A stretch of 64,000 nucleotides of DNA, taken from the IMG/VR virus record IMGVR_UViG_3300045049_000286, positions 1-64,000 of that record; one strand, given 5' to 3'. Numbering within the stretch: position 1 is the stretch's first letter; every line of letters starts with the position of its first letter. This document shows, in pieces, positions 4,882 through 58,685 of this stretch. This DNA comes from a virus. The notes beneath the pieces were generated by a model that was given only the letters and a program-made list of their open reading frames with translations, searched no databases and had not been told where the DNA came from. The translations under genes and the position numbers were made by a program.

Positions 4882-4920
4882 GACATTTCCGTCGAGGTCC
4901 GTGCATTCCGGACATTTGTG
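4882..4920 (+). promoter_or_regulatory. CATT-box cluster
   Basis: Three boxes lie in the gap before the next gene: GACATTTCCG (4882), GCATTCCG (4903) and GACATTTG (4911). The first two CATT cores are 20 bp apart. Similar boxes recur at many other gene starts in this window (see findings). Function, promoter or operator, is inferred from position only. Confidence 0.45.
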
Positions 4921-4967
4921 GTGTGACTATCTGGTGGTCATCCCCCGCGAATGCTTGGAGGTACTCC

Positions 4968-5840
4968 ATGGGTGACCTGCGCCCCGTGACCGTGGGAGCC
5001 ATCGGGACCGGCGCCGTCACGGCCGACCTGGTCTGCGCCGCCCTCAACGACACCTTCGCCTACGGCCCCGAGGACGACGAGGGCTACTTCGCCCCCTCGG
5101 ACATGTGCGAGGTGAGCCTGCTGCTGTGCGCCAACGACGACATCCCCGCCGGCCTGCAGCAGGTGTGGCAGTGGGGACTTCGGTGCGAGCTGCGCATGGA
5201 GCTGTACACCGCCGGCGACAACCACGAGTCAATCACGGTCGTCGCCGAGACCCTCGACGGGACCGACCTGCACAAGGTCGTGGCCTCCCCCGTCACCGAC
5301 ATGCTCGCCGCCCTCGGCGCCGGCGAGAACCCGCTGCTGCTGGTCATCTCCGAGGACGGGGTCCTCGACGAGGACGCCGAATGGGCCGCCGCTCGTGCGC
5401 TGGAGAAGGACATCCCCGTCTTCGACCTCTCGCGCGCCGTACTCCAGCTCGACTGGGATGACCTGCCCCACCACGAGGCGCCCGAGCCGGTCCAGGAAGA
5501 ACCAGACGGGCAGCTCGCCCTCGTGGTCGACGACGGCCCCGAGACCATGCTGACCGCCAGCGAGGTCCGCACCATCAACGACGTGCTCGGCGCCATCGGC
5601 GAGTTCGCACTGCAACTGCGCGAGCTGCTCGCCAACGGCATCGACGACCTGCTCGCCGACATCAACAAGGCCCGCGCCGTGCTGGCACCGCGCGCCGCCG
5701 AGCCCGAGGAGAAGACCAGCAAGCGCGCCTCACGCCAGTACCTGGAGGTCTTCGACGAGGCCACCGGGGAGTGGAAGCGCGCCGGACGCGGCCGGCCGAA
5801 GAAGGGCGCCCAGACGCGCCTGGTCCCCGCGAACTCCTGA
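4968..5840 (+). CDS. unknown acidic protein with C-terminal AT-hook
   Basis: 290 residues. The start at 4968 is chosen because GGAGG lies 7 bases upstream; an in-frame ATG at 4923 has no ribosome binding site. The body is acidic with no recognised domain (GAIGTGAVTADLVCAAL near the start; NPLLLVISEDGVLDEDAEW near residue 120). The last 30 residues are basic and contain GRGRPKKG, a classic AT-hook that binds the DNA minor groove, preceded by YLEVFDEATGEWKRA, a segment common just before such hooks in actinophage proteins. It is followed by a hairpin terminator. A DNA-associated role is inferred from the hook only. Confidence 0.7.
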   Translation: MGDLRPVTVGAIGTGAVTADLVCAALNDTFAYGPEDDEGYFAPSDMCEVSLLLCANDDIPAGLQQVWQWGLRCELRMELYTAGDNHESITVVAETLDGTDLHKVVASPVTDMLAALGAGENPLLLVISEDGVLDEDAEWAAARALEKDIPVFDLSRAVLQLDWDDLPHHEAPEPVQEEPDGQLALVVDDGPETMLTASEVRTINDVLGAIGEFALQLRELLANGIDDLLADINKARAVLAPRAAEPEEKTSKRASRQYLEVFDEATGEWKRAGRGRPKKGAQTRLVPANS

Positions 5841-5852
5841 CAGACGCGCAAA

Positions 5853-5887
5853 GCCCCCTCACAGGATCGTCAACACCGCGAGGGGGC
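5853..5887 (+). terminator. hairpin terminator
   Basis: GCCCCCTC (5853-5860) pairs with GAGGGGGC (5880-5887) around a 19-base loop, 13 bases after the AT-hook gene stop. There is no T-tract, which is usual in high-GC actinobacterial genomes. Confidence 0.6.
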
Positions 5888-5889
5888 GC

Positions 5890-5909
5890 GCATTCCGGAT
5901 CGACATTCC
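5890..5909 (+). promoter_or_regulatory. CATT-box pair
   Basis: GCATTCCG (5890) and GACATTCC (5902) with CATT cores 13 bp apart, 26 bases before the start of the HTH gene and just after a terminator, so well placed to drive or control that gene. Nearly the same arrangement (spacing 14) occurs at 30822-30840. Confidence 0.45.
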
Positions 5910-5934
5910 TCCGGGGCAGTGAAGGGAGATTAGC

Positions 5935-6378
5935 ATGCAGCCCGTCACCATAGACGACATTCTCCAACGTGTTCCCGACCGTGCGCAGCTCGCCTACACC
6001 AACCTCATCACGCACCGAGACTCAGTGTTCGACGACGCCACCGGCTGGTCCTACGCCTACCTGACCCAACGCGAGTTGGCCTGCGAGATGGGCGTCGCAT
6101 ACCGCACCGCTCAGCGCGCGCTGGTGGATCTGCGCGAGGTGGGCCTCGTCCGCGTCCTCGCGTGGCCGACCGCGCAGACCGAGACCCACATTCGCGTGGC
6201 CGACATCGACATTTCCTCGGTGTTCGGCCCCATCCGCGCAATGCAGGAGCAGCTCCCGCGCGAAGAGCAGATCGACTGGGCAATCCAGCAGCTCAGGCGC
6301 TACTTCGACTACCTCGACGAGGCCGAGGGAGTAACTGACGCCTCAACTGGCGGTTCGAGCGCATGCGCTGGGAGCTAG
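5935..6378 (+). CDS. winged-helix DNA-binding protein, possible replication initiator
   Basis: 147 residues. Residues ~40-75 (YLTQRELACEMGVAYRTAQ, then ALVDLREVGLVRV) form a clear helix-turn-helix followed by a wing, like DnaD/replication-initiator or helix_turn_helix_36 domains found in front of phage helicase loaders. A strong site AAGGGAG precedes the ATG. The C-terminal third is helical and acidic. Being first in the replication block, with a tandem-repeat/hairpin element at its 3' end (6371-6435), suggests it may bind a replication origin or regulate the block; that is inference. Confidence 0.7.
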   Translation: MQPVTIDDILQRVPDRAQLAYTNLITHRDSVFDDATGWSYAYLTQRELACEMGVAYRTAQRALVDLREVGLVRVLAWPTAQTETHIRVADIDISSVFGPIRAMQEQLPREEQIDWAIQQLRRYFDYLDEAEGVTDASTGGSSACAGS

Positions 6379-6406
6379 AGCAGGAGCTAGAGCACCAGCA
6401 AGAGCA
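6371..6406 (+). repeat. three 12-bp tandem repeats
   Basis: GGAGCTAGAGCA occurs twice perfectly (6371-6382, 6383-6394) and once degenerately (CCAGCAAGAGCA, 6395-6406). The first copy contains the stop codon of the HTH gene. Iteron-like, but only three units. Confidence 0.7.
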
Positions 6407-6412
6407 GGGTGC

Positions 6413-6435
6413 GTAAAGAGACTTCGTCTCTTTAC
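6413..6435 (+). terminator. strong hairpin, terminator or structured leader
   Basis: GTAAAGAGAC and GTCTCTTTAC form a perfect 10-bp stem closed by TTC (a C-UUC-G type loop). A second small hairpin (GCGCG-CTGA-CGCGC) follows at 6441-6454. Between the HTH gene and the next gene the 115-base gap holds only these hairpins, the tandem repeats and the ribosome binding site AAGGAG. Confidence 0.6.
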
Positions 6436-6493
6436 TCCCTGCGCGCTGACGCGCGCATCTCAAAACAAATGACAGACCGAAGGAGCCGACGCC

Positions 6494-12998: not shown

Positions 12999-13020
12999 CA
13001 CCCGTTCGGCCGCTGTCCGC

Positions 13021-13051
13021 GCATTTTTTCCGATCATAGGCTGCATTTGCC
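13021..13051 (+). promoter_or_regulatory. CATT-box pair
   Basis: GCATTTTTTCCG (13021) and GCATTTGCC (13043), cores 22 bp apart, in the 100-base gap before the next gene. Very similar to the pair upstream of recA at 18914-18948 (GCATTTTTTGCG and GCATTTGTCC, 23 bp apart). An AT-rich patch in a GC-rich genome; promoter or operator role is inferred. Confidence 0.5.
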
Positions 13052-13100: not shown

Positions 13101-13589
13101 ATGGGCGAAAACGAGTCCTCCGAGTACGAACCGCAGCTCGATCCCGTCCCGATCGACCCCGTGGTCCCCCTCTTTCGCGAGTGGGCCCTCCTCAAGGCGC
13201 GCACCACCCAGCTCAGCGCCGAGCGCGACAAGCTGCGCGACCGCATCGCCAAGGCCGTCGAGGAGCGCGGCTACACCGACCACAAGGGCTCCCAACTCCT
13301 CGACCTGCCCTTCCCCCTGCAGGTCGGCGACACCACCTACACTCGCATCAAGCGCGAACGCCGCGTCAGCGTCGTCCCCGACGTGGACGCCGCCGAAGCC
13401 ATCTGCCACAACGTCGGCATCGAGAACGGCGTCGGCGACGAGTACTACGAGCGCGCCTTCCCCCTCGTCCGCCAGCTCGACGTGGAAATGCTCTACGTCC
13501 TGCTGCAGGAAGGCGTCCTCGACGAAGAGGACATGGACACCATCTTCGTCGAGCACGAAACCTACGCATTCCGTGGGCTCACCTCATGA
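13101..13589 (+). CDS. unknown coiled-coil protein
   Basis: 162 residues from the ATG at 13101 (AAGGG upstream); a TTG at 13047 would add 18 residues but lies inside the CATT box. Residues ~25-60 (LLKARTTQLSAERDKLRDRI) form a short coiled coil; the middle (YTRIKRERRVSVVPDVDAAE) and acidic C-terminus match phage proteins of unknown function. It overlaps the following gene by ATGA. Confidence 0.6.
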   Translation: MGENESSEYEPQLDPVPIDPVVPLFREWALLKARTTQLSAERDKLRDRIAKAVEERGYTDHKGSQLLDLPFPLQVGDTTYTRIKRERRVSVVPDVDAAEAICHNVGIENGVGDEYYERAFPLVRQLDVEMLYVLLQEGVLDEEDMDTIFVEHETYAFRGLTS

Positions 13590-13987
13590 CCGCCCGCAAG
13601 CGCATGAACTCCCGCCCTCTGCTCGGCCTCGGCGAAGCCCTGCGCCGCGAGGGCCTGACTGCCGACGACCTCGCTGACCTCACCTCGCGCGATATCACCA
13701 CTGTGCGGTCCTGGATCGGCGGCGGCAACGTGCTCATCGGAATGCGTCGCCAGCTCGCCCGCCTCCTCGACGTCTCCCTGGTCGACCTGGAGGAAGGCTT
13801 CCCCGAGTCGGCCGAACCGCCGGCTGCACCGCCCGCCCCGGAGGCCCCTGCCCCGCCGAAGAGCGTGCGGTTCGAGCCCTACCGAGAACTCATCGAGCCG
13901 ATCCGCCTCCCAACCTACGACGAGGCAGTCCTGCTCCTGCTCGACTTCCAGCGCCGCCTCGACGCACTCCTGGGGCCGCTGCGGTGA
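13586..13987 (+). CDS. HTH-type regulator
   Basis: 133 residues. Residues ~13-65 (LGLGEALRREGLTADDLADL, DITTVRSWIGG, RRQLARLLDVSLVDLEEGF) match a Cro/XRE-like helix-turn-helix; the middle is Pro/Ala-rich and the C-terminus helical. ATGA coupled to the preceding gene and GTGA coupled to the next. Likely a DNA-binding protein within the replication operon; target unknown. Confidence 0.6.
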   Translation: MTARKRMNSRPLLGLGEALRREGLTADDLADLTSRDITTVRSWIGGGNVLIGMRRQLARLLDVSLVDLEEGFPESAEPPAAPPAPEAPAPPKSVRFEPYRELIEPIRLPTYDEAVLLLLDFQRRLDALLGPLR

Positions 13988-14421
13988 AGTCCATCGACGT
14001 CTACCCAGGCACCCACCAGCCCATCGGCTCTCGGGCGCCCACGCCGCTCGCGCCGCGCAGCAGCGGTTGGGACGAGAACCCGATCTACCGCCAGGTACAG
14101 GGCTACATGCGCGAGTTCTTCGGCGTTGGCCACCTGTCCAAGGCCCTCGGCCGGTCCGTCAAGACGATCTACAAGTGGGAGACCGAGGGCCTGTTCCCCA
14201 AGGCCACGTTCATCTACAACGGCGCCTCCCGCAACGGTCAGCGCCGGCTGTACACCCGCGCCCAGATCGAAGGCGCCCTGCGCATCGCCGAGGAGGAGGG
14301 CATCCTCACCGGCCGCGTGCGCTACCTCGGCCAGACCCTCTTCCCCACCCGATGCGCGGACCTGTTCCGCACCACCAAGGGCATCCTCCCGCCCCCCATC
14401 ACCGAATGGAGCACCCAGTGA
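13984..14421 (+). CDS. MerR/excisionase-like HTH protein
   Basis: 145 residues, GTG start overlapping the previous stop. Residues ~45-85 (FGVGHLSKALGRSVKTIYKW, ETEGLFPKA, then NGQRRLYTRAQIEGAL) match the MerR/HTH_17 winged helix-turn-helix used by excisionases and phage regulators. The YKWE..G..P.A pattern and the RRLYT recognition wing are clear. It may regulate replication genes or act as a recombination directionality factor for the serine integrase; the latter is speculation. Confidence 0.7.
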   Translation: MKSIDVYPGTHQPIGSRAPTPLAPRSSGWDENPIYRQVQGYMREFFGVGHLSKALGRSVKTIYKWETEGLFPKATFIYNGASRNGQRRLYTRAQIEGALRIAEEEGILTGRVRYLGQTLFPTRCADLFRTTKGILPPPITEWSTQ

Positions 14422-15525: not shown

Positions 15526-15581
15526 CGAGTCGCCAGCACGAAGCCGAACGCGGTGACATTTCTACCGCACCGGAGACGCTC

Positions 15582-18802: not shown

Positions 18803-18913
18803 CCTGGACTCTCACGCCCCGGGCGCTGGCATCTGCAAGGCGGTGGAACGCCGCCGCCAGCGTGCCGGGGTTCTCGCATTGCATTAAAGGGCCACTCGTT
18901 CAGCTCTACCGGT

Positions 18914-18948
18914 GCATTTTTTGCGATCTTACGATCGCATTTGTCCGG
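18914..18948 (+). promoter_or_regulatory. CATT-box pair before recA
   Basis: GCATTTTTTGCGATC (18914) and GCATTTGTCCGG (18937), cores 23 bp apart. The segment is nearly the same as that at 13021-13051. It sits in the 169-base gap before recA, where nothing else is visible besides a GCATTGCATTAAAG stretch near 18886. Confidence 0.5.
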
Positions 18949-20334: not shown

Positions 20335-20700
20335 ATGGCGATTCGCGCACAGACCCCATCGCCGGACTGGTCCGACAAGCACTGGCGTGGCGAAGCGAAA
20401 TGCACCCGCACGCCGCCATCCCTCGGCGGCCCCGACCTCTTCTACGACGACGAACCGGTCGCCCTGGAATTCTGCAACGGCACCTTGTACCCAGGCGACT
20501 TCGTCTGCCCGCGCCGGGCCGAATGCCTGCGCACCGCGATGCTCAATCTGGAGAACTACGGCATCTGGGGCGGCATGACCCCCGAAGACCGGTTCGCGCT
20601 GCGGTCCCGCTACCCGGGAATGCCAGAGCGCTGGGTATGGCATCCGCCCCGCACCACCAACCAACTGGAGGACGAATCCTCGTGGCCAACGGCAGCATGA
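20335..20700 (+). CDS. WhiB-like (Wbl) regulator, variant cysteine set
   Basis: 121 residues. The WhiB signature YGIWGGMTPEDR and CPRRAECLRTAM are present, plus an upstream KC and FC, so four cysteines can ligate an Fe-S cluster. The spacing is odd: the usual CxxCxxxxxC is replaced by FCNGTLYPGDFVCPRRAEC, with nine residues between the second and third cysteines. Phage Wbl proteins can alter host sigma-factor-driven transcription or silence whiB-type host genes. It sits between two nuclease genes, two bases after the resolvase stop. Confidence 0.85.
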   Translation: MAIRAQTPSPDWSDKHWRGEAKCTRTPPSLGGPDLFYDDEPVALEFCNGTLYPGDFVCPRRAECLRTAMLNLENYGIWGGMTPEDRFALRSRYPGMPERWVWHPPRTTNQLEDESSWPTAA

Positions 20701-22479: not shown

Positions 22480-23057
22480 GCGGCCTCACCTACACCAGCA
22501 CCGAGCCGCCGGTCATCCACGTCGGCATCGACCCCTCCTACAGCGCGTTCGCAATGGTCGCCCACGTCACCGGCCCCAAGGAGAACGGGCACCACCAGTG
22601 GCTGTGGGACTTCTCCCCCAGCAAGGCCGGCCGCGCCGGCGCCCGCCTGCGATGCATCCAAGCAACCCTGCGCGACGCCTTCGGCGAGATCCACTCACAC
22701 GGACGCATCGCGGTGGTCGCCCTCGAAGGCTACGCACCCGGCCGAACCCAAAACCGTGAGGTGATGGGGGAACTCGGCGGCGTGGTCAAGATGGTCCTGG
22801 ACGAGGAGGTCGGCGACGGCCGCGTGTTCGTCGTCGCCCCCACCGCCCTCAAGAAGTTCGTCACCGGCTCCGGCAGCGCCCCCAAGGATAACGTCCTGCT
22901 GCAGGTCTACAAGAAGTGGGGCGTGGAGTTTCGATCCAACGACGTCGCCGACGCGTTCGGCCTCATGCAGGTCGCCCGCGCCTTGAACTACGGCGCCGAA
23001 CGCGCCTACGAACAAGAGGTCATCAAGTCCCTGCTGGCGAAGCAGGATAACGGGTAG
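22476..23057 (+). CDS. RuvC-like Holliday-junction resolvase
   Basis: 193 residues. RNase-H-fold order of RuvC: VIHVGIDPSYSAFAMVAHV (first catalytic Asp), VVALEGYAPG (Glu), a middle helix (GELGGVVKMVLDE) and FVVAPTALKKFVTGSGSAPK ending with NDVADAFGLMQVARAL (final Asp). It cuts four-way junctions formed by recombination. GTG start overlaps the previous stop. Follows the RecA-exonuclease group and ends the replication-recombination block. Confidence 0.85.
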   Translation: MSGLTYTSTEPPVIHVGIDPSYSAFAMVAHVTGPKENGHHQWLWDFSPSKAGRAGARLRCIQATLRDAFGEIHSHGRIAVVALEGYAPGRTQNREVMGELGGVVKMVLDEEVGDGRVFVVAPTALKKFVTGSGSAPKDNVLLQVYKKWGVEFRSNDVADAFGLMQVARALNYGAERAYEQEVIKSLLAKQDNG

Positions 23058-23070
23058 GAAAACTCGCGCC

Positions 23071-23112
23071 GTACGCTCCAGCCACAATTCGGAACAAGAT
23101 CAGGGAGCGTAC
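23071..23112 (+). promoter_or_regulatory. inverted repeat covering a ribosome binding site
   Basis: GTACGCTCC (23071-23079) pairs exactly with GGAGCGTAC (23104-23112) around a 24-base loop. The right arm carries the GGGAG ribosome binding site of the SpoVS-like gene (GTG 23116), so folding of the RNA would hide it; as DNA it could be an operator. Confidence 0.5.
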
Positions 23113-23115
23113 ACG

Positions 23116-23394
23116 GTGGAAGACAAGACGGAAGACCAGACCTTCCGGGTGAAGTCCACCACTTCGCCGCCGGAACTCGGCTCGGCCATCGCCCACGCCA
23201 TCAACAAGGGCAGTGAGGTCACCCTCAAAGCAGTCGGCGCGGGCGCGGTGAACCAGGCCGTGAAGTCCATCCCGATCGCCCAGAGTTTCGTCATCTCCTT
23301 CGGCATCGAGCTGGTCCAGCAGATCAGCTTCTTCAACGGCCGCGCACGCGAGGGCGAACTCGTCGGAGTCGCGATCCGCGTCATGCGCCGCTGA
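23116..23394 (+). CDS. SpoVS-like (Alba-fold) protein
   Basis: 92 residues from GTG with GGGAG upstream. Residues 12-92 align by eye with stage V sporulation protein S: FRVKSTTSPPELGSAIAHAI, the hallmark GAGAVNQAVKSIPIAQSF, then a final strand VGVAIRVMRR. SpoVS is a small Alba-fold protein important in sporulation of Bacillus and present in other bacteria and phages; nucleic-acid binding is suspected. A phage copy could influence host development or nucleic-acid packaging. Function here is inferred. Confidence 0.8.
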   Translation: MEDKTEDQTFRVKSTTSPPELGSAIAHAINKGSEVTLKAVGAGAVNQAVKSIPIAQSFVISFGIELVQQISFFNGRAREGELVGVAIRVMRR

Positions 23395-23463
23395 ATATTC
23401 GCGCCGAAAGACGCGCTTTTATCCTCCCCTTCGACGCTCCACATAGCGAAGGGCCGAAGGATC

Positions 23464-25770: not shown

Positions 25771-27078
25771 GTGACCACACCGATCACGAACATCGAGACC
25801 AACTCCGACCTGACCGCCGAGTCCGGCTCGCTCGCGGGGCGCACCACCACCCCCCCGGAGACCGCCGCCGCCCGCATCACCGACCGGCAGGCCGTCAGCT
25901 ACCCCGTCATCCCGGCTCCGCCCACGCCGATCTGGTACACCAACAGCTCCGGCACCGCGATCCCCGGCGGCACGGTCACGCCCACCTCGATCCAGCTCTT
26001 TTGGAAGAGCAACGTCGGCGCCATCGCCGCCGGATCGAAGATGCCCCCGCTGCCGCCCACCGCGAGCGCCGACCCTATCAACAAGGGCTCCGCCGGCGTG
26101 CAGCACCTCGGGGTCGGCGGCCACAACATCTACATCAACGGCGCCACCAGCCCGAGCCTTCGCCTGCGCGGGCCCGCCACCACGGCCATCATCACCGGCT
26201 ACTTCAACAGCTCCGGCGTGTGGACCCTGATCCAGCCCAACACCACCTACACGATCGTGGTGGAGGCGTGCTACCCCACCGGCACCCTCCCGGGCCTGCA
26301 GGGCAACGGACCCACCACCCCCTCGGCGCTGGCCGGAACCGGCTCCGGCAACAAGTCCGCATCGCTGTCGGTGACCACCCCGCTGACCACCACCACGTCC
26401 CAGCAGGTGACCACCCCGCCGCCCACCGCCGGCGGCGTGCAGCTCACCGCCCCCGTCCCGGTCATCACCGCCCCGGCCGGCGTGCAGATCTCCATGAGCT
26501 GGAACCGCGTCTCGCAGGCCACCGGCTACGAGCTGTGGGACAACAACTCCACCACCAACGACCTGCAGCCGGACCCCAACAACCCCGGGTTCTTCCTCGG
26601 CGACTACAAGGTCGGCACCATCACCCAGGTCGCCCTGCCGGCCACCACCGTCACCTACATGACCCCGGCCTACCAGATCCCCGGCGTGCCGTTCCGCCTC
26701 AAGGTCCGCTCGGTCAAGACCGACTCCAACGGCACCGCCTACTCCGCGTTCTCGCCCGTCCTGCGCGGCACCATCCCCCCGGCTCTCACCGCCCCGGCCA
26801 CCCCGCCCGCCCCGACAGCCGCCAACAACGCAAGCCCCGCGCACTCGGTCAACGTCACCGTCAACGCCAACAGCTCCTTCACCGGCGGCAACGCCCCGGA
26901 GTACTACAAGATCTACGACGGGGCCACCCTCAAGACGCAGCTCACCGCCGCGCAGATCGGCACCCCCTACCAGATCCAGTACGCCGGCTCCGGCGTGAAC
27001 TACTCGATCACCGTGGTCGCGGGCAACAGCAAGGGCCTGTCCGTCGCCTCCCCCGCCGCCACCGGGACCACCACGTGA
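25771..27078 (+). CDS. fibronectin-III-like protein, probable virion decoration or tail protein
   Basis: 435 residues from GTG with GGAGG upstream. After a polar N-terminus there are at least two Ig/FN3-like modules (SMSWNRVSQATGYELWDN, FRLKVRSVKTDSNGTAYSAF; then PEYYKIYDGATLKTQL and YSITVVAGNSKGLS near the end). Tandem FN3-like modules are common on phage surface proteins, where they may bind host cell-wall sugars. Coupled to the holin-like gene by GTGA. Placement after the small putative virion genes supports a structural role. Confidence 0.7.
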   Translation: MTTPITNIETNSDLTAESGSLAGRTTTPPETAAARITDRQAVSYPVIPAPPTPIWYTNSSGTAIPGGTVTPTSIQLFWKSNVGAIAAGSKMPPLPPTASADPINKGSAGVQHLGVGGHNIYINGATSPSLRLRGPATTAIITGYFNSSGVWTLIQPNTTYTIVVEACYPTGTLPGLQGNGPTTPSALAGTGSGNKSASLSVTTPLTTTTSQQVTTPPPTAGGVQLTAPVPVITAPAGVQISMSWNRVSQATGYELWDNNSTTNDLQPDPNNPGFFLGDYKVGTITQVALPATTVTYMTPAYQIPGVPFRLKVRSVKTDSNGTAYSAFSPVLRGTIPPALTAPATPPAPTAANNASPAHSVNVTVNANSSFTGGNAPEYYKIYDGATLKTQLTAAQIGTPYQIQYAGSGVNYSITVVAGNSKGLSVASPAATGTTT

Positions 27079-28459: not shown

Positions 28460-28584
28460 CCCACCCACGCGGCGCACAGGCATTAACCCGCGCGAAAAAC
28501 CCCTCCGTAGGGTCGGGAGCCGTCACCCAGGAACGCCTCTGGGAGAGCCGGTGACACGCTCCTGTTCCCGTTGAACGGACCGAA

Positions 28585-30821: not shown

Positions 30822-30840
30822 GCATTCCTGGTTCGACATT
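30822..30840 (+). promoter_or_regulatory. CATT-box pair
   Basis: GCATTCCTGG (30822) and GACATTC (30835), cores 14 bp apart, between the gene stop and the terminator. Matches the pair at 5890-5909. Confidence 0.4.
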
Positions 30841-30899: not shown

Positions 30900-31140
30900 T
30901 TCCGTTGCCGGCTCCAGGAGTTGGGGGAAAAGTGACCGCCTCCATGCTTCCCTACCCGCTCATGTGTAGGTAGCAGAGACGGCCCCCGGAACGCCGGCGA
31001 CCTGGTGCACCACGGTTGGTTGACGTGGCACAGGCCACACTACCCCCAGTAATGCACGATCAACAGAGCAGTGACATTAACTGACCGGAATGTCGCATTT
31101 TTACCCTTGCCGCACTCGGCAATGAATCGGAGGCCCGACC
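30900..31140 (+). promoter_or_regulatory. promoter-like gap with CATT boxes
   Basis: Non-coding 240 bases after a terminator. TTGACG at 31020 could be a -35 but no convincing -10 lies at the right distance. GACATTAA (31073) and GCATTTTTA (31095) have cores 21 bp apart, ending about 40 bases before the next start, which has GGAG. Otherwise nothing recognised. Confidence 0.45.
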
Positions 31141-33386: not shown

Positions 33387-33872
33387 TCAGGCCAGCTGAT
33401 CCTCGCGCTCTCCGGCCTCCTCCAGCGCCATGTCCTCCAGCACGTCCGCGATGGCAACCTCCAGCGCCGTCTGGTTCGGCCCCACGACCGGCACGAGCGC
33501 CGCCCGGAACAGATCCGGCGCCCTCCTCAACGCCAGCGCCAACGTCGCGGTGATCTGCGGCCCCCACGTGTCCGCCATGTCCAACCGAAGAGCCACGCAG
33601 CGCGACTCCTCCGCAATCAGCCGCAGCCTAACCTCACCGGCTGGTTCCGCTACCGCTAGCCACCGCATGCACTCCGCGTGGACGTCCTTCATCGTCTGCA
33701 CCGCGATCGAGTAGCGCAGGTGCATGCCGCTCAGCTCGTCCAGCGTGATCTCCAGATCCGGGTGCGCCGCCTGGTACTCCCGGAACTCCATCAACCAGCT
33801 CTGCCCCACACGCCACGCCGCCCGGTACCGGCGCGCGTAGCCGCCGTCTTCCAGCATCTCCGGGGAACTCAT
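33387..33872 (-). CDS. unknown helical protein
   Basis: 161 residues from ATG 33872 with GAGGAGGG upstream. Mainly helical (MLEDGGYARRYRAAWRVGQS, GMHLRYSIAVQTMKDVHAEC, LVPVVGPNQTALEVAIADVL) with an acidic end. No family recognised. It is the last gene of a leftward unit whose promoter region contains two GCATATGC palindromes. Confidence 0.6.
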   Translation of the reverse strand: MSSPEMLEDGGYARRYRAAWRVGQSWLMEFREYQAAHPDLEITLDELSGMHLRYSIAVQTMKDVHAECMRWLAVAEPAGEVRLRLIAEESRCVALRLDMADTWGPQITATLALALRRAPDLFRAALVPVVGPNQTALEVAIADVLEDMALEEAGEREDQLA

Positions 33873-33902: not shown

Positions 33903-33931
33903 GCATATGCAAATCACCACGACGCATATGC
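33903..33931 (-). promoter_or_regulatory. two GCATATGC palindromes 21 bp apart
   Basis: GCATATGC at 33903-33910 and 33924-33931 in the 121-base gap, upstream of the gene starting at 33872. The two sites are 21 bp apart, like the CATT boxes, and could be an operator for a dimer or two dimers. Confidence 0.5.
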
Positions 33932-35825: not shown

Positions 35826-35862
35826 AATGCGTCACCCGTTCGGCCGGGCATACCGGACATTT
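35826..35862. promoter_or_regulatory. CATT-box region
   Basis: Divergent-type gap: AAAATGCGTCACCCG (35825) is an inverted box, then GCATACCGGACATTTTTC (35848). The last is nearly the same as GCATTCCGGACATTTG at 4903. The region lies between the leftward operon and a small rightward frame. Confidence 0.4.
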
Positions 35863-35882: not shown

Positions 35883-36008
35883 GTGCTGACGGACTCCGAC
35901 GACGCGACTCCCGACAAGGCCGACTGCTGGGCCGCCTTCTGGGAGGTCATAGGCCCTGAGCTGTACCGGCTCTGGCTCGAAGACCAGACCAACTCAACTA
36001 GCGACTGA
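35883..36008 (+). CDS. possible 41-residue protein
   Basis: GTG at 35883, poor ribosome binding site, 20 bases after a CATT box. Sequence LTDSDDATPDKADCWAAFWE then VIGPELYRLWLEDQTN looks coding and helical. Overlaps the 3' end of the integrase (opposite strand) by 15 bases. In-frame ATGs at 35802 and 35820 are alternatives. Weak evidence. Confidence 0.35.
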   Translation: MLTDSDDATPDKADCWAAFWEVIGPELYRLWLEDQTNSTSD

Positions 36009-37715
36009 CGCGCGCTGTTCCAACACCTTCTCCCATGCCACGCGTCGCTTGACCTTCCCGTCGGGAGCCTCCCACGCGGGCACGATCTCGATCACGCTCC
36101 AGGACGTACCGGCACCCTTGCGCACCGCAATATGGTCGACAACCATGCGCAGCGCCGCTCGGCGCTTGTCCACCGACAGCCGTGGCCACTGCTCCGCCAT
36201 CTTCTCGAATGCTTCCGCAGGCGGCGGCGCACTGCTGCGTACCCGGGGCGCGAGCGTCTTCATCTCGGTCTCGATGTCCGCCAGCCTCTGCTCGTACTCG
36301 CGGGTGAGCTTCTCCGCCGACCGCTCCGGCACGGACTTCTTCGCCACTGCGAGGGCCAACGCATCCTGCTCGGCTTCGATCTGCTCCTTGAGCTTCTCCA
36401 GCTGTACCAGCTTCTTGCGGTCCCGCTCATCAGAAAGTTGACGCTGGACCGCTGCTACCGCGTTCTCCTCGCCCTCAGCGTTCGCCTTGAGCCAGTTGAG
36501 GACCGCAGCTTCCAACCGTGCCAGCGAGACCTGCACGCCCTCGCAGTCGCCCGTGTGCAACTTGCGTCGGCAGCCGAAGTTGACGATGTACCCCGACGTC
36601 GCCCGAGAGTCCCGCCTCGGCCGTGCGGACATGGAAGACCTGCAGACGCTCCCGTTCTCCCGCGTCGCATAGCAACGAACCAGCGTCGAAACCGAGTACT
36701 TGGGGTTCGTCGACCGCGTCTCCCCCTGTGCCTGCAGCAGCCGGCGCTCCACGTACCGGCGCCACACCTCTGGACCGATGATCGGAGCGTGCTTACCCCG
36801 CCGCCAACCGGCTGGCGGAGCGTAGTACGACGGACCGCCTTCCTCGTCTTGAACAAGCTCCCACTCGAAATCGTCGGCCGCCCACTTCCGCAGCTCCTCG
36901 GTCTCCGTACCGACGTCGGTCCGGAGGTAGCCGGCCTGGAACCCGGTGTCGAGCGAGTTGCGCCAATCGCCCCACGACATCTTCTTGCCGTCGGGGTATT
37001 TCTTTGACGGGGCCGAACGGAATCCGGACTTCTGGAACTGCGCAGCGAGCGCCTGCCCGCTTTCGCCGTTCCCGTACCGGCGGCACATCTCCTCGATGTC
37101 GTCGGCCGTGCTCTCGTTGATCTGCAGCACGCCGTCGCACGTCTTGCAGTGGACGTATGCGCGCTCGTTCATCGGGTTGCGATGGCAATCAGGGCACCGG
37201 GTGTATCCGAGCCGCAGCCGGCCGCTGTGCGGCATGCCGCGCCGGTGTCGGTTGTCGTGGGCGCGGACCCACGCCTCGGAGATAAGCACCGAGCCGTTCT
37301 CGTCGACCACGGTGTTGAATTGAAAGGCGAGCTTTCCGGCCGCCGTGGATGTGTCGATGATCTGGCCGCCAGCGATAAGGCATGAGCCAGATTCACGCAG
37401 CAGTCGCTCATGCCGCTGAGCCTCTGCGCTGTTGCGCCCCCACCGGTTGGTGTGAATGAGGATGACGCCGTCGATCTCAGCGCGGCGCGACATGTCAATG
37501 ATTTCCATGATTCGGCGCGTCTCGAAGACGGTGCCGGTGAGGTCCTTCTCGATGATGACATCGACGACCGAAACACCGAGCATCTCGGCTACGCGCTTGC
37601 CGTGGTCGATCTGGATCTCTTCGCTGTACTGCATCGTGCGGTCCATGCTGATGCGCACATAGATGACTGCCCGGCGCAGTGCGCGAAGGGCTGTACGGCG
37701 CAGCTTCTTTGCCAT
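35994..37715 (-). CDS. large serine integrase
   Basis: 573 residues. N-terminal resolvase domain with AVIYVRISMDR (catalytic Ser23), RRAEIDGVILIHTNRWGRN, then a recombinase domain and a zinc-ribbon domain (RCYATRENGSVCRSSM, NFGCRRKLHTGDCEG) and a coiled-coil (LEKLKEQIEAEQDALALAVA). An extra Cys4 ribbon (RCPDCHRNPMNERAYVHCKT, CDG) lies inside the recombinase domain. Such enzymes join attP and attB with a 2-base crossover. Leftward, last in a three-gene leftward group after the candidate attP. Implies a temperate life style. Confidence 0.95.
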   Translation of the reverse strand: MAKKLRRTALRALRRAVIYVRISMDRTMQYSEEIQIDHGKRVAEMLGVSVVDVIIEKDLTGTVFETRRIMEIIDMSRRAEIDGVILIHTNRWGRNSAEAQRHERLLRESGSCLIAGGQIIDTSTAAGKLAFQFNTVVDENGSVLISEAWVRAHDNRHRRGMPHSGRLRLGYTRCPDCHRNPMNERAYVHCKTCDGVLQINESTADDIEEMCRRYGNGESGQALAAQFQKSGFRSAPSKKYPDGKKMSWGDWRNSLDTGFQAGYLRTDVGTETEELRKWAADDFEWELVQDEEGGPSYYAPPAGWRRGKHAPIIGPEVWRRYVERRLLQAQGETRSTNPKYSVSTLVRCYATRENGSVCRSSMSARPRRDSRATSGYIVNFGCRRKLHTGDCEGVQVSLARLEAAVLNWLKANAEGEENAVAAVQRQLSDERDRKKLVQLEKLKEQIEAEQDALALAVAKKSVPERSAEKLTREYEQRLADIETEMKTLAPRVRSSAPPPAEAFEKMAEQWPRLSVDKRRAALRMVVDHIAVRKGAGTSWSVIEIVPAWEAPDGKVKRRVAWEKVLEQRASVAS

Positions 37716-40367: not shown

Positions 40368-41225
40368 TCAGGAGCGCTTGGAGTGGATCTCGTACAGGGC
40401 GATGGCTGCCCCGTTGATGCGGGCATTGCCCTCCTTGTCGCGAGCGGCGAAGCCCTTGCGGAGCAGATGGTCGGTGTTCTTGGTGCCTTCGGGGGCGAGG
40501 AGGCCGCCGTTGGCGATGGCGCGGGCGATGTTGGTCAGGGAGGACTTGGAAGCGACGTCGGCGTTGTCCTGCGCGTGCGCGATGTCCTTCTTGCTGGGGG
40601 TGGGCAGCTTGACTGGTGTGACGCCGGCGCTGGCGAGGCGTTCGCGGATGCGGCGGTCGAGTCCGGCGAACTCGGGGGTGCCCTGGGCGTAGAAGGCGCT
40701 GCTGATGTCGGCTGGGATGCGTCCCCTGGCGGGGGCTGCGCCTACGCCGTAGGTCTTGGCTGCCCAGGCGCGGATGGCGGAGGAGTTCGGGTCGCGGGCG
40801 GCGTTGGGGTCGCGTCCTGGCAGCGCCGGCTCTGTGCTGGGGAGTGGGGCCGTGGTGGTCGGCTCTGGTGTGGCGGCTGTGGCGGGCGTTGACGCGAACT
40901 CAGCGGGGGGGCGGAAGAGGTCGAGTGGGTTGTAGCTGGGGGTGGCGGCGCGTCGGGTGAGGTTCTCGACGCGGGCGGCGTGGTGGGCGAAGGGGGCGAC
41001 GTGGTCGCTGTTGGGGGCCGCGTGCTTTGCGGCCGGTCGGCGGCGGGGCACAATGCGGGCGTGCTTCACGAATGGGTCGAGGGCCTTCTGGAGCCGCTCC
41101 TTGTTTTGGGGGCTGAGGTCGATCTCGTAGGTGACGTCGCCTACCGCGAACGTGACGCATTCAGCGGCGGTCTGCCCATCAATGTCGTCTACGACTTGTT
41201 CAACTTTCACGATTTTGCGCGCCAT
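40368..41225 (-). CDS. Lsr2-like nucleoid protein with long C-terminal extension
   Basis: 285 residues from ATG 41225. Residues 1-60 match Lsr2: VKVEQVVDDIDGQTAAECVT, DVTYEIDLSPQNKERLQKAL. Residues ~150-180 (DPNSSAIRAWAAKTYGVGAA, ARGRIPADISSAFYAQG) match the Lsr2 DNA-binding domain with the minor-groove RGR hook. The extra ~100-residue tail (KKDIAHAQDNADVASKSSLT and beyond) is not in host Lsr2 (about 112 residues) and is followed by nothing else recognisable. Lsr2 silences AT-rich foreign DNA; a phage copy may compete with or mimic the host protein. Confidence 0.85.
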   Translation of the reverse strand: MARKIVKVEQVVDDIDGQTAAECVTFAVGDVTYEIDLSPQNKERLQKALDPFVKHARIVPRRRPAAKHAAPNSDHVAPFAHHAARVENLTRRAATPSYNPLDLFRPPAEFASTPATAATPEPTTTAPLPSTEPALPGRDPNAARDPNSSAIRAWAAKTYGVGAAPARGRIPADISSAFYAQGTPEFAGLDRRIRERLASAGVTPVKLPTPSKKDIAHAQDNADVASKSSLTNIARAIANGGLLAPEGTKNTDHLLRKGFAARDKEGNARINGAAIALYEIHSKRS

Positions 41226-41757
41226 AAGCCCGGTCCTGTTCGGTCGCGTGGTGCGTCTGGATAGGTGCGTCCTGCAGGTGCCTTGTGTCGTGCGCGGGAC
41301 GCTGCGTCTACACGCGAAGGTACCGCATTTTTGTGAGTGCGGAGTGCGGCGCGCTGGGGTCTGTGGAGGGCTCGCGGGGGGCGCGCGGAGGTGTCGTGGG
41401 CCGCTCAATACCATGCATATGCAGGGCGTTTGCCCTTGGGTGTGACGTGCGCTACGCAACAGTGCAGCTCAGGTGCAGTGTGCTGGCTGCCGGCCAGTGA
41501 ATGGGGGAATGCGAATGTGGGCGCGGTGCATGGGGGGCGCTAAGGATGCGTTAAGGCCCCCTTTGCAGAACTTCCACAAGCTGAGTACACGCTGCCGCTT
41601 ACCGTACGTCCGCACCCCTTGGACAACGAGTAACGAAGGCCGAGGTCACACTTTTTGATCGTGACATCCGACATAGGCCGGGGCTAGACGCCACGCCACA
41701 TTCAGGTGATCTGACGACGGCAATCATGCAGATCATCTGCAGATTCCGCATATGACA
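41226..41757. other. 532-base gap upstream of the Lsr2-like gene
   Basis: No gene recognised. It holds a box GCATTTTTGTGAG (41325), a GCATATGC (41416), another GCATATGAC (41748), repeated TGCAG words (41464-41485), and the start of a terminator. It probably contains the promoter of the Lsr2-like gene and its AT-rich patches may be autoregulatory targets; that is inference. Confidence 0.5.
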
Positions 41758-47877: not shown

Positions 47878-47910
47878 GGTGGTGCTCCCATTGGTGTGGT
47901 CTGGACGTAC

Positions 47911-47945
47911 ACGGGGCCCCACCCCGAGAAGGGATGGAGCCCCGG
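47911..47945 (-). terminator. hairpin terminator, duplicated gap type
   Basis: CGGGGC (47912-47917) with GCCCCG (47939-47944), extended by CCACCC/GGGATGG. Ends the gene at 47958. Confidence 0.65.
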
Positions 47946-47957
47946 TGCGCGAGCAGA

Positions 47958-48356
47958 TCAGAGGTGGACCGTCTCACCGTTGATCATGGTGAGCCCCGCG
48001 CCGCCCTCGTACTGGAGGACCGCGATGTTGGCCGCGTTGCAGTAGTCGGTGTCCTCGGCGGGGAGGTCGTGGCCGAGGTGGAGGAAGCGGCCCTCCCAGG
48101 CCCGGACCTGCTGGGTGGCCTGCTCCCAGGTCTCAGCGGTGACGGTGAACGTCGCCACCATCTTGGCCTGGAATGTGTAGGTCTGCTGTGCCACGGTCTT
48201 CTTCTTCTCCTCGGGTGGTTGGTGCTTGATGGGCACCCAGTCACGGGGGTGCCAGGAGATGCAGTGGATGCCGCTCCAGTCGTCCTCGACGGTGAGGCCG
48301 TTGGTGAACAGCCGCGCGCCGCAGCGGGTGCAGTCTCCGAGCGGCTTCCAGGTCAT
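47958..48356 (-). CDS. unknown protein with a Cys pair
   Basis: 132 residues from ATG 48356, overlapping the previous stop. TRCGARLFTNGLTVEDDW with a His-rich follow-up (SGIHCISWHPRDW) could be a zinc site; then QTYTFQAKMVATFTVTAETW, a beta-rich end. No family recognised. Confidence 0.52.
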   Translation of the reverse strand: MTWKPLGDCTRCGARLFTNGLTVEDDWSGIHCISWHPRDWVPIKHQPPEEKKKTVAQQTYTFQAKMVATFTVTAETWEQATQQVRAWEGRFLHLGHDLPAEDTDYCNAANIAVLQYEGGAGLTMINGETVHL

Positions 48357-50030: not shown

Positions 50031-50570
50031 TCAGTTCTCCTTGTTCTCGATGGCGCCCAGGCAGTCGTCGTCGTGGTAGGTGTAGTCGTGGACGGACTCC
50101 ACCTGCGCTTGGTAGGCGTCGGCCACGGCGGGCGGCATGTCGGCGTCCCAGCCGGGGGCGAGCTGCTCAAGGAACCAGTCGCAGCCGCTGCCGGAGCGGC
50201 CGGGGTCGATGTCGTGCTGGTTGAAGCTGTCGACCTGCACGCCGTTGACGAAGAGCGTGCAGGTGGTGTCGCCGTCCGGGTCGCGGTTGACGATCAGGTC
50301 GTAGCGAGGGGGGTTCTTGGCGTCGAACACGTCGGTGTCGTTGATGCTGACGCGGAGGTTGACCAACTCGTGGTCGGGGTTCCCGAAGTGCAGTTCCTCG
50401 GGCCACGCCTCTTCCAGCTCGATGGTGACCTGGTAGCGCGGCTCGGGGTCATCGGTGACGTAGGCGAACACGCGGTCGCCGTTCGGCATCATCAGGCGGG
50501 GCAGGGGCGTTGCCGCGCTGCCCTTGAGCGCTCGGATCGTGCGGTTGAACTGACGGGCGTCGAAGCTCAC
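50031..50570 (-). CDS. unknown 179-residue protein
   Basis: GTG 50570. Beta-rich (RYQVTIELEEAWPEELHFGN, ELVNLRVSINDTDVFDAKNP, CTLFVNGVQVDSFNQHDIDP), which could be a small jelly-roll or receptor-like fold. No family recognised. Its start lies next to a CATT-box region. Confidence 0.55.
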   Translation of the reverse strand: MSFDARQFNRTIRALKGSAATPLPRLMMPNGDRVFAYVTDDPEPRYQVTIELEEAWPEELHFGNPDHELVNLRVSINDTDVFDAKNPPRYDLIVNRDPDGDTTCTLFVNGVQVDSFNQHDIDPGRSGSGCDWFLEQLAPGWDADMPPAVADAYQAQVESVHDYTYHDDDCLGAIENKEN

Positions 50571-50572: not shown

Positions 50573-50645
50573 GAATGCCTCCAGTAAATGCGGATGGGCA
50601 GCCCCGACATTCTGGGACTGCCCTGCGTCGAAAATGCGTGACCGT
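50573..50645 (-). promoter_or_regulatory. CATT-box region before a leftward gene
   Basis: On the minus strand: GCATTTTCGACG (near 50637), GAATGTCGGGG (near 50613), GCATTTACTGGAGGCATTCCC (near 50597 and 50580), the last of which includes the GGAG site of the GTG start at 50570. Same box type as on the plus strand. Confidence 0.4.
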
Positions 50646-55949: not shown

Positions 55950-55955
55950 GACCCG

Positions 55956-56626: not shown

Positions 56627-56634
56627 AGCGCCTC

Positions 56635-57006
56635 CTAGTAGCTGTGTCCGGCGGCCTGGAGCCAGTCCGCGAACCGGTCCAGGGTGTGGAGCGCGCGGCG
56701 CAGGTCGTCGTCGGTGCTGCCTTTGGTCACGCACTCGCGCACCATCTCGACCTCGAAGCTGTCGGGGTCGGGCTCACGCTGGCCCGAGCCAGGCGTGAAG
56801 ATGTCGCGCGGCACCGGGGTACCGAAGTCGAACGTCAGCACCTCGGCCACCGCTCCGAGCCACATCAGACACCACCCCCACTGGTCGTACGGGTCGTGGT
56901 TGAACCGGGCCTCGTACATCACGGCCTGGTAGCCGTTGTGGCCCTCCGGGCCGAAGGGGTAGACGCGTCGCGGATCACCACCGCGCGGGTGCAGCTTTGT
57001 CTTCAC
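56635..57006 (-). CDS. unknown protein
   Basis: 123 residues from GTG 57006. Reads GYQAVMYEARFNHDPYDQWG, MWLGAVAEVLTFDFGTPVPR and a C-terminal helix (LRRALHTLDRFADWLQAAGH). No family recognised. Coupled to the upstream gene by GTGA. Confidence 0.52.
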   Translation of the reverse strand: MKTKLHPRGGDPRRVYPFGPEGHNGYQAVMYEARFNHDPYDQWGWCLMWLGAVAEVLTFDFGTPVPRDIFTPGSGQREPDPDSFEVEMVRECVTKGSTDDDLRRALHTLDRFADWLQAAGHSY

Positions 57007-57386
57007 CGGAAAGGCTCTCCGTTCCAGTCGATGTCGCGGTTGGGGTCGAACGCGCGAATCCATGCGCGCGCGGTTTTTGTTGCGTCCTCGATGTCCCCGT
57101 TGAACGGCAGGGTGTCCAGCGACGCGTACGTGTAGTCGCACCACTCCTCGGTGCTGCCGGGGTCCTCGATGTCGCGGCAGATCATGAACTCGGTCATAGC
57201 GTCGACGCCGAGCGAGTCGAGGTCGTGTTCCACGTCATCATTGAGTGGCGCGGACGCGTAGGCGTACACGTTGACCACGCGACCGGGCAGATCCGGATTG
57301 ACGAACCGAACCGAGCACGCCTCGCCGAGCTGCTCGTCACCGTGTTGCCCGTCGTCGTCCATGATCGGTCCGTGCATGACCCACAT
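57003..57386 (-). CDS. small unknown protein
   Basis: 127 residues from ATG 57386. Contains VRFVNPDLPGRVVNVYAYAS and an acidic centre; C-terminal WIRAFDPNRDIDWNGEP. One base overlaps upstream. No family recognised. Confidence 0.52.
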   Translation of the reverse strand: MWVMHGPIMDDDGQHGDEQLGEACSVRFVNPDLPGRVVNVYAYASAPLNDDVEHDLDSLGVDAMTEFMICRDIEDPGSTEEWCDYTYASLDTLPFNGDIEDATKTARAWIRAFDPNRDIDWNGEPFR

Positions 57387-57688
57387 CAGTCGGTCTCCCT
57401 CGGCGTGCCGTCCGCGTTCAGGCCGCGCCGGTAGCGCCGCTGGCCCTCCTTGAACGCCACCTTGAAGAGGCGCCACATGGCGAAACGCTTGGTCTGCTCG
57501 CGAGGGCTGATCCGGCCCGCTCGGAACAGGTCCACGGTGACGTCTGGGTCCATTTGGGCCGGATAGTGAATCTTCGAGACGCCTTCACTGCCGTACGCCT
57601 CGACGTAGTTGGCGTGGTCCCATCCGTATTCCCAGCCCATCTCGTTCGCGCGCTGGGTCTCTTCCTCGGTGAGCTGCCAGTAGTCCAC
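57386..57688 (-). CDS. small unknown protein
   Basis: 100 residues. Acidic N-terminus (YWQLTEEETQRANEMGWEYG), then FRAGRISPREQTKRFAMWRL with a basic end RRYRRGLNADGTP. No family recognised. Confidence 0.52.
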   Translation of the reverse strand: MDYWQLTEEETQRANEMGWEYGWDHANYVEAYGSEGVSKIHYPAQMDPDVTVDLFRAGRISPREQTKRFAMWRLFKVAFKEGQRRYRRGLNADGTPRETD

Positions 57689-57691
57689 CGG

Positions 57692-57949
57692 TCAGTCCTC
57701 CGTCGTCGTGTCGGCCGAGACGACCGACGTGCCGTCTCCCCGGTATGCCGTGTACAGCCCGGCCTCACCGCAGGTGATCGGGAAACTGAACGGCCTGCCG
57801 TCCACGTAGAGTTGCGCCATGCGCGCGTCGCGGCCGGTGAGCCGCTCGACCCACGCTTCCTTACCTGCGACCTGCATGTGCATGCACACCTCGGAGTAGG
57901 GCAGCCGCACGTGGACCACATCGCCAGGCGCAACGAGAATCCGGCTCAC
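57692..57949 (-). CDS. small unknown protein
   Basis: 85 residues from GTG 57949, AAGGAGG upstream. Compact beta-rich domain (RILVAPGDVVHVRLPYSEVC, MAQLYVDGRPFSFPITCGEA). No family recognised. A strong terminator lies upstream of it. Confidence 0.54.
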   Translation of the reverse strand: MSRILVAPGDVVHVRLPYSEVCMHMQVAGKEAWVERLTGRDARMAQLYVDGRPFSFPITCGEAGLYTAYRGDGTSVVSADTTTED

Positions 57950-57996
57950 TTCCGAACCTCCTTGATTGAGTTGTGGATTGGGCGGAGAAAGGGCGA

Positions 57997-58023
57997 GGCC
58001 GCGCGGCCACACTCCGCGCGGCC
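57997..58023 (-). terminator. hairpin terminator
   Basis: GGCCGCGCGG (57997-58006) pairs perfectly with CCGCGCGGCC (58014-58023), 10 bp, with a pyrimidine-rich run after it on the minus strand. Ends the gene at 58030. Confidence 0.8.
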
Positions 58024-58029
58024 CCGTAG

Positions 58030-58524
58030 TCAGCCGACGATCGGCCCGGCCACGGTGCTCTCGGGCTTCTTGCCGATGCCCCAGTCGCGCATGCGGCGCG
58101 GTAGCTGCACGCAGAGCGTGTCGTAGCTGATCAGTCGGTCTTCGTCGCCGCCGACGTAGACGATGGTGTAGGCGCCGTTCGGGTTGATCACCACGTCCTT
58201 GACGACCTTGAACGCGAACGCGTAGGCGTACGCGGGCTGCTGCGGACTCATGTACGACGGTTCCGGCTCCAGCCAGTACGCGCGAGACACCGCGAGCCCG
58301 ATCAGCGCGCTGCGGTCGTACCAGGCGTCGGCCGGGCTGATGTAGAGGTAATGCCAGAACTTGGCACCCTCGGCCTCCACGCGTCGGTGGTTCTTCCAGA
58401 CGTTCGCGTAGTGGAACACGTCGTCACGAAGCCGAACGAGATCACGCGACCGTACGAACTGCTCCTTGTACCAGGCGAGTTCATCCTCGGCCGATGCGAA
58501 CTCCGGGATCTCGGTGCCGGTCAT
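58030..58524 (-). CDS. unknown 164-residue protein
   Basis: ATG 58524 (GGGAGGGC upstream). N-terminal SAEDELAWYKEQFVRSRDLV, RRVEAEGAKFWHYLYISPAD, AYAFAFKVVKDVVINPNGAY. Looks like a mixed alpha/beta fold. No family recognised. The 161-base gap upstream holds CATT boxes on the minus strand (near 58542, 58592 and 58610). Confidence 0.55.
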   Translation of the reverse strand: MTGTEIPEFASAEDELAWYKEQFVRSRDLVRLRDDVFHYANVWKNHRRVEAEGAKFWHYLYISPADAWYDRSALIGLAVSRAYWLEPEPSYMSPQQPAYAYAFAFKVVKDVVINPNGAYTIVYVGGDEDRLISYDTLCVQLPRRMRDWGIGKKPESTVAGPIVG

Positions 58525-58685
58525 AGGCCCTCCCCAGGAAAATGCGCGCGCGAGTTTTGGTTGCGTCCGCGCGCCCTCACGCCGCCGGACATTACCGGCG
58601 CGGTGTGACATTTCGGCAATGCAACACGCGACGCACAGCCGCGCCCGGCCACGTCCCCCGACCCGTGGCCCAGCGTGGCCCCACG

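Follow-up and report, generated by a model that had tools for sequence, protein, structure and literature searches.

The GCATT and GACATT boxes that recur before genes in bases 1-64000 (the window) of the virus record IMGVR_UViG_3300045049_000286, which is 107,980 bases long, are real, enriched in the gaps before genes and oriented with those genes, but they are not one element. A sequence-only reading of the window had listed such boxes, often in pairs, between positions 4882 and 58620 and had taken them for a phage-specific promoter or operator. This proposal holds in that promoters, and probably operators too, are present; they are, however, different elements that share letters. We consider it fairly probable that three regulatory elements are mixed in the box list, namely a late promoter class, an early promoter class and tandem palindromic operators, together with a large remainder. 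Within the clade of related phages the late and early promoter classes are conserved, whereas the letters GCATT are not. The regulatory signals that time the genes of large Streptomyces-type myophages appear to be little described; in the open-access literature, which leaves most subscription journals outside, we found neither actinophage late promoters of this kind nor a report on WhiJ in prophages.

In the whole window, GCATT occurs 78 times against 62.6 expected, a slight excess reached by 2 of 100 shuffles, and GACATT 17 times against 13.0, which is no excess (22 of 100 shuffles reach it); the box excess is therefore positional. Across the complete record, in which our own script rather than a published gene finder called 169 genes, gaps make up 13.7% of the DNA and hold 58 of the 122 GCATT and 16 of the 24 GACATT copies. 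The earlier claim that the boxes lie in gaps and not in genes is correct as an enrichment, although 64 of the 122 GCATT copies are inside genes. For phage BRock the same script called 159 genes, compared with 188 in the accessible part of its description (PMC7453282), so that some gaps contain uncalled genes. The boxes are also denser in gaps than base composition predicts: among the 246 five-letter words with three A/T letters (complements counted separately), GCATT ranks third in gap share, after GCATA and its complement, and its orientation bias is the largest of all, with 36 forward and 12 reverse copies, a difference of 24 where the next largest is 12. It is the top word in the 75 oriented upstream gaps, with 36 copies against 12.9 expected under an order-2 Markov model. 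A side effect of composition, by which AT-rich words would collect in the gaps, near -10 elements, of a GC-rich genome, finds some encouragement in other AT-rich words that favour gaps (CGTTT 45%, GCTTT 45%); it is nevertheless very improbable, given the rank and orientation bias of GCATT within the matched set, relatives of near-equal G+C without such enrichment and a 21-bp pairing (below) that exceeds shuffles.

The record belongs to a group of phages that permits comparison at two depths. With the Streptomyces phages BRock (a myovirus according to the accessible part of PMC7453282), GiJojo, LuckySocke, Alone3 and pSt2308 it shares 53-55% identity in the terminase and 47-50% in the RecA/UvsX-like protein; for the last three phages, the promoter comparison covers the RecA-like gene. 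IMG/VR and genome collections supplied closer relatives: G006, G009, G005, G010, G011 and fragments, with terminase identities of 73-79%, together with a contig of Saccharothrix sp. ST-888 (G013, 78%) and a stretch of the Streptomyces sp. CBMA29 genome (G012, 70%). Of 390 confirmed loci, 80 were kept, and the whole records analysed are those few that are mentioned by name in this text. Queries of viral contigs with the DNA polymerase and with gene 13101 confirmed no relative.

This comparison bears on the earlier proposal, in which all boxes are one promoter or operator and one protein reads GCATT/GACATT and switches the genes downstream. The oriented enrichment of 36 to 12 speaks for it, as does the confinement of the 49 boxes to 26 of 75 gaps, where 31.7 would be expected (P 0.02). 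However, none of 12 related records has an enrichment of GCATT before genes (ten place it 157th or lower, and in two it is too rare for a rank), the relatives have conserved promoters without GCATT, and the position of the box relative to the -10 element varies; we sought a constant GCATT-to--10 distance and did not find one. A single-motif expectation-maximization search of the gap sequences returned mostly coding periodicity, though GCATTT.C was recovered. A single element is distinctly improbable.

The first of the three elements emerged from aligning the gaps before orthologous genes: AWTAWC followed by YANNNT, 26 bases from start to start. In six relatives, ATTA[ACT] is followed by YANNNT at exactly 26 bases in 20 cases (orthologues included), against 0-3 at the other distances from 12 to 41; seven reverse-strand cases at the same distance presumably represent divergent gaps read twice. 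We built a matrix from 35 sites of these six relatives, with near-identical orthologues down-weighted to 16.6 effective sites and none taken from the present record. Applied to this record, it gives 12 matches of at least 9 bits, 10 of them in gaps and 2 in coding DNA, whereas 60 column-shuffled matrices give a mean of 1.2 gap matches (maximum 4) at 9 bits and 0.23 (maximum 3) at 12 bits. The ten gap sites lie 8-72 bases before genes 23116, 23464, 28585, 31141, 72522, 77983, 79222, 80778, 91572 and 105050. At 12 bits, the matches in untrained clade records fall mostly in gaps (G010 8/9, G011 6/8, G012 5/7, G013 2/2), and those in other untrained records do so rarely (G018 0/2, G015 0/3, G001 1/2, BRock 0/4, GiJojo 0/2); at 9 bits, outgroups have gap matches too (BRock 4/23, GiJojo 3/16, G001 2/6, G008 1/5). 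The pattern is conserved, spacing-locked and placed before genes in eight records, from which we infer that it is a promoter.

Four of these sites lie in the window, all on the plus strand: GATAAC, 26 bases, TACGCT at 23046-23077 before gene 23116 (14.2 bits with the relative-derived matrix); AATATT and TATCCT at 23394-23425 before gene 23464 (15.1 bits); the site at 28480-28513 before the transglycosylase-like gene 28585, in which GCATT is GC plus ATTAAC and the -10 is TAGGGT at 28508-28513 (23.3 bits); and the site at 31073-31107 before gene 31141, in which GACATT is GAC plus ATTAAC and the -10 is TACCCT at 31102-31107 (14.7 bits). The link to the boxes is one of overlapping letters: in 4 of the 10 late sites a C stands before the -35-like element, so that the letters read CATT, and three of those four (28480, 31073 and 72458) are GCATT/GACATT boxes, of which 31073 alone had been listed before. 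The 31073 promoter also doubles as a 21-bp pair with GCATT at 31095. We call the class late because of the genes behind it, among them the terminase (79222) and the transglycosylase (28585); this timing is probable rather than observed.

The late element keeps the TANNNT -10 of main-sigma (sigma-70/HrdB-type) promoters before genes, some sites having CANNNT or GANNNT instead, but lacks TTGACA about 17 bases before it. BRock and GiJojo share the TANNNT -10 and combine it with TTGAC 23 bases upstream (12 cases against 0.54 expected in BRock, 12 against 0.44 in GiJojo), whereas in the gaps of the present record TTGAC followed by TANNNT is found at none of the distances from 12 to 41; G001 has the related form TAAC..24..TANNNT (8 cases against 0.09 expected). 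A retained -10 with a displaced -35 contact points to a phage factor that works together with the host polymerase, which would probably keep its -10 contact while the factor would supply the -35 contact at a shifted place, near -38. In T4, middle promoters consist of a MotA box and TATAAT. The arrangement here is similar in that the main-sigma -10 is kept and the -35 contact would be replaced by a phage-dependent box; the box and its distance are different. The spacer is also lengthened as in MerR-type promoters (19-20 bp), 26 bases from start to start leaving 20 bp between the hexamers.

Alternatively, the late promoter might be read by an alternative sigma factor of the host instead of a phage-modified main polymerase. 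No sigma region-4 (PF04545) match was found in this record, in a search confined to that family, so that a sigma factor of the host is required under either reading; this is compatible with an alternative sigma, but the -10 is of the ordinary main-sigma type and BRock and GiJojo combine TTGACA with the same -10, and we regard the alternative as unlikely. As a separate observation, G009 has a sigma region-4 match above the cut-off at 47894-47989, the sole such match among 11 records. For the suggested phage factor, the gene at 5935-6378 (plus strand), which encodes a winged-HTH-like protein with an HTH_Crp_2 match below the cut-off, is a candidate and not more: it occurs in six of the seven clade records, the seventh being a fragment, and in none of six others, a distribution shared by nine other genes, which weighs against singling it out. 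The WhiB-like (20335-20700) and MerR-like (13984-14421) proteins, which had been named as possible box binders, are indeed encoded, each in 10 of 11 records compared; since BRock and GiJojo have both genes yet use TTGACA promoters, their presence does not track the boxes, and as late-promoter factors both were set aside, though still conceivable, because such a distribution does not discriminate.

The second element is a predicted promoter of two replication genes, composed of the box CACYCGTTYGGC, a T-run and TANNNT. Seven records have it upstream of gene 13101, where G012, an eighth, has a divergent form, and seven have it upstream of the RecA-like gene 18972; in all 12 aligned relative sites of both genes, the box lies 37-38 and the T-run 14-15 bases from the -10. 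The matrix for this class was built from those 12 relative sites, excluding both sites of the present record, the G012 site at 13101 (a different form) and G013 at gene 18972, which has no such stretch before the called start. In the window, the promoter of gene 13101 extends over 12999-13042 (plus strand), with the box CACCCGTTCGGC at 12999-13010, the T-run within GCATTTTTT at 13021-13029 and the -10 TAGGCT at 13037-13042, a layout that recurs before the orthologous gene in six relatives; that of the RecA/UvsX-like gene extends over 18893-18935 (plus strand), with the box CACTCGTTCAGC, the T-run in GCATTTTTT at 18914 and the -10 TACGAT at 18930-18935. The sequences at 13021 and 18914 had been noted as nearly the same, which is correct apart from a 1-base indel; they are so because both are copies of one early promoter, the first box GCATTTTTT of each being its T-run. 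In such an arrangement, the upstream box, T-run and TANNNT would together drive the two replication genes. Directly after each -10 stands a second box, GCATTTGC at 13043-13050, one letter from the palindrome GCATATGC described below, and GCATTTGT at 18937-18944 (both plus strand); these second boxes (GCATTTG after the -10) are found in this record only, not in relatives, and are candidate operator arms.

A further copy of CACCCGTTCGGC with a T-run, for which no -10 was found, lies at 35833-35861 (plus strand) and adjoins the serine integrase gene; it is among the three best of 30 early-box matches, 5 of the 30 lying in gaps, and it includes the box at 35848. The complete promoter pattern at 13021 gave no match across all viral contigs. 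In the BRock group (L007-L011), the roughly 100 bases upstream of the RecA-like gene contain TTGTCAGTRGGGTC or AATGTCAGTGGGGTC and, after it, a TANNNT-like hexamer; this motif resembles the actinobacterial PafBC DNA-damage promoter.

The third element concerns the pairing. Paired cores had been described as 20, 22, 23 and 21 bp apart, near two helical turns, and these distances are correct. Pairs of boxes with G, GA or GC before CATT are in excess at 20-25 bp (7 against 2.5 expected, P 0.006), at 20-23 bp (5 against 1.7, P 0.018) and at 13-14 bp (4 against 0.9, P 0.010), the spacing windows having been picked after the data were seen. The preference for exactly 21 bp becomes overwhelming only when GCATA is included: [GA]CAT[AT] pairs at this distance occupy 8 loci in this record and none in 11 others, random placement gives a mean of 0.66 with 0 of 2000 trials reaching 8, and none of 400 dinucleotide shuffles reaches the count at 21 or at any distance (with looser merging, which gives 9 loci). 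Two of the loci lie in the window, at 31074 and 33903, and six to its right, at 64117, 64792, 66526, 71738, 73946 and 75124. The carrier of this signal is mainly the palindrome GCATATGC, which was absent from the earlier list, rather than the letters GCATT; all 7 of its copies are in gaps. Two copies 21 bp apart at 33903-33931 form a tandem operator candidate before the leftward gene 33387-33872, and a single copy within TGCATATGCA, at 41415-41422, lies in the upstream gap of the gene for an Lsr2-like nucleoid protein with an Lsr2 domain (40368-41225).

To the right of the window, the pair 75124/75145 occupies the gap between a WhiJ-like gene (74182-75045; HTH PF13560 and DUF5753 PF19054) and an AbaA-like HATPase gene (75272-75706), and next to the WhiJ-like gene is that of a DUF397 (BldB-like, PF04149) protein (73973-74185), all of these matches being above the Pfam cut-offs. 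The cassette resembles the whiJ, abaA, bldB arrangement of Streptomyces (accessible part of PMC10294661). In S. venezuelae, according to the same text, the sites bound by WhiJ9 are three direct repeats, CGXXCTCAAC, located next to the gene for WhiJ9 (iosA-whiJ9); the phage shares with this system the HTH and DUF5753 (XRE-DUF5753) protein beside a DUF397 partner and a divergent gap, adjacent to the regulator gene, that contains repeated sites, and differs in that its sites are palindromes, with GCAT...ATGC arms 21 bp apart, that are also scattered over the phage genome. A WhiJ-like gene with a short DUF397-like neighbour occurs also in G006, G009, G012, G008, G015 and G018, about 2-8 kb from the terminase except in G018; the Pfam scan of the cassette neighbours covered the present record, and the labels of the relatives' neighbours were read from their sequences. 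In three of eight relatives, the WhiJ-like promoter contains another palindrome whose exact copies are all in gaps, namely TGCGTACGCA in G009 (3/3), TGCGCGCGCA in G012 (4/4) and GCAACGTTGC in G008 (3/3), in tandem at 12, 11 and 12 bp, respectively.

The 21-bp pairing is therefore most readily assigned to a WhiJ-like regulator whose gene lies outside the window, an assignment read from sequence, and the comparison supports a resemblance of the paired sites to WhiJ-type operators, a membership that rests on gene content and position. The phage WhiJ-like protein (74182-75045), with its BldB-like partner, would read tandem operators two helical turns apart, formed from GCATATGC and looser GCATT/ACATT arms, and would presumably bind the 21-bp pairs as its operators. 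At 4 of the 13 pair loci at 20-25 bp (13021, 18914, 70841 and 73946), TANNNT lies between the arms, compared with 3.2% of random gap windows, and binding would thus cover those promoters; a protein bound at these four loci would block them, which makes the WhiJ-like protein a candidate repressor as well as a candidate binder.

Several observations weigh against this WhiJ-like reading. No palindrome with at least three gap-only copies was found in the WhiJ-like promoter in five of nine records (G006, G015, G018, G001 and G002); that of G006 has CCCTAGGG twice. At 21 bp, pairs in which both members are strictly GCATT do not reach significance (1 locus, P 0.21), and [GA]CATT pairs do so only modestly (3 loci, P 0.009), the palindrome carrying the signal. 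With one mismatch allowed, GCATATGC has 10 copies in gaps and 16 in genes; with two mismatches allowed in each record's palindrome, the gap and gene counts are 13 and 19 (G000), 15 and 44 (G009), 38 and 155 (G012) and 11 and 13 (G008), and the G012 list includes other spacings too. The half-sites of the relatives' palindromes are not among their listed top words. We also asked whether the promoters of host whiJ genes carry this operator form, and rejected the idea: the genome of Streptomyces CBMA29 has 29 DUF5753 matches, of which 28 promoters could be read (one locus has no open frame), and 23 of the 27 non-phage promoters lack TGC-N4-GCA, 4 have any copy and one has two, as does the promoter in the phage region, so that the TGC-N4-GCA form is not general to the protein family.

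A large remainder lies outside all three elements. Masking the late and early promoters leaves GCATT in first place among oriented words (29 copies where 10.9 are expected, 10 reverse), and a palindromic operator does not explain this orientation, which counts further against the WhiJ-like reading. These 29 of the 36 oriented boxes are not enriched in any relative and are mostly unexplained. Their consensus is CGCATTYYC at best, further columns having no strong preference, and they may be loose arms of the same operators: around GCATT boxes, the best GCATTT match lies 21 bases upstream (1.79 of 6 letters; mean 1.38, sd 0.17), but offsets of -7, -34 and +25 are nearly as good. The unexplained class includes three boxes, GACATT, GCATT and GACATT, at 4882-4916 (plus strand) before gene 4968; GACATT at 15555-15560 (plus strand) before the DNA polymerase gene 15582; and three GCATT boxes at 50574-50637 (minus strand) before the leftward gene 50031-50570. 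The GCATT/GACATT pair at 5890-5907 (plus strand), 13 bp apart before gene 5935, is partly mirrored in relatives, for instance as GCCATTCGACACATTCC in G006. Two GCATT boxes at 58541-58622 (minus strand) precede the leftward gene 58030-58524, and the one at 58618 fits CATT..27..TAATGT, a weak late-type candidate that the matrix missed.

The boxes listed by the sequence-only reading are present, with three corrections. That at 35848 is GCATA, not GCATT, followed by GACATT at 35856; those at 58588 and 58607, given as minus-strand copies, are GACATT on the plus strand and point away from the leftward gene 58030-58524; and the pair at 30822/30835, placed at a gene start, directly follows a gene end about 300 bases ahead of the next start.

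The main rival for the leftover boxes is that they are stoperator-like sites, of the L5 type, of a lineage-specific repressor such as the XRE-like protein encoded at 13586-13987 (plus strand; phrog_2328, E 8e-5), whose operon follows the 13021 promoter, or some other regulator found in this record alone. CGCATTYYC is asymmetric, oriented and enriched in this record only, and the 13586 protein has no match in 13 relative records; dissimilar XRE-like genes, identified by eye, occupy the same slot between two conserved genes in G010, G012 and G013, and no gene was called there in G006, G009, G005 and G011. However, the conserved core is only 5-8 bp long and 64 of the 122 GCATT copies are inside genes; we judge this rival rather unlikely. 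As described in the accessible part of PMC6550527, operators and stoperators of the L5/Bxb1 type in Cluster A mycobacteriophages are likewise numerous per genome, oriented with transcription and lineage-specific, their sequence differing with the repressor. They have a 13-bp core and a different repressor, whereas here we found no such core, but fixed-spacing palindromic pairs and short leftover boxes; one orientation predominates (36 to 12). The start-associated sequences of Cluster K mycobacteriophages, according to the accessible part of PMC3203893, are also short repeats before gene starts in mostly one orientation, typically occupying the ribosome-binding-site position, 3-7 bp from the start codon; the present boxes do not keep within a few bases of the start codon and lie 0 to more than 300 bases away. 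Separately, G001 (L012-L017) has a start-associated repeat of its own, GGAAAGGGGA, present upstream in 18 copies where 0.1 would be expected; repeats of AGTTGGTCAAC lie close to promoters at 26056, 32937 and 41188.

Other features of the record deserve brief mention. It carries two integrase types, a serine integrase in the window (35994-37715) and a tyrosine integrase (L003:18052-19134), and is therefore probably temperate. A small protein encoded at L003:8594-8947, with a GCATT box upstream, weakly matches the C-terminal domain of the RNA polymerase alpha subunit (E 0.007, below the cut-off). Within the window, 2.5 kb at 60494-63036 have no confident gene call.

More broadly, it is conceivable, and in our view only a little short of probable, that a clade of large Streptomyces-type myophages carries the host-like developmental switch whiJ-bldB-abaA, usually 2-8 kb from the terminase, as a regulatory circuit of its own, with lineage-specific palindromes, placed in tandem on one DNA face (11-12 or 21 bp), as operators across the genome, while the promoters, including the late class with its 20-bp spacer, are conserved. 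With a readable operator, a WhiJ-BldB-AbaA cassette carried by a phage would provide a compact system for WhiJ studies and could help to predict immunity groups from sequence, and the spacing-locked late promoters predict the transcription starts of up to about ten genes per phage, to which the early class adds two more.

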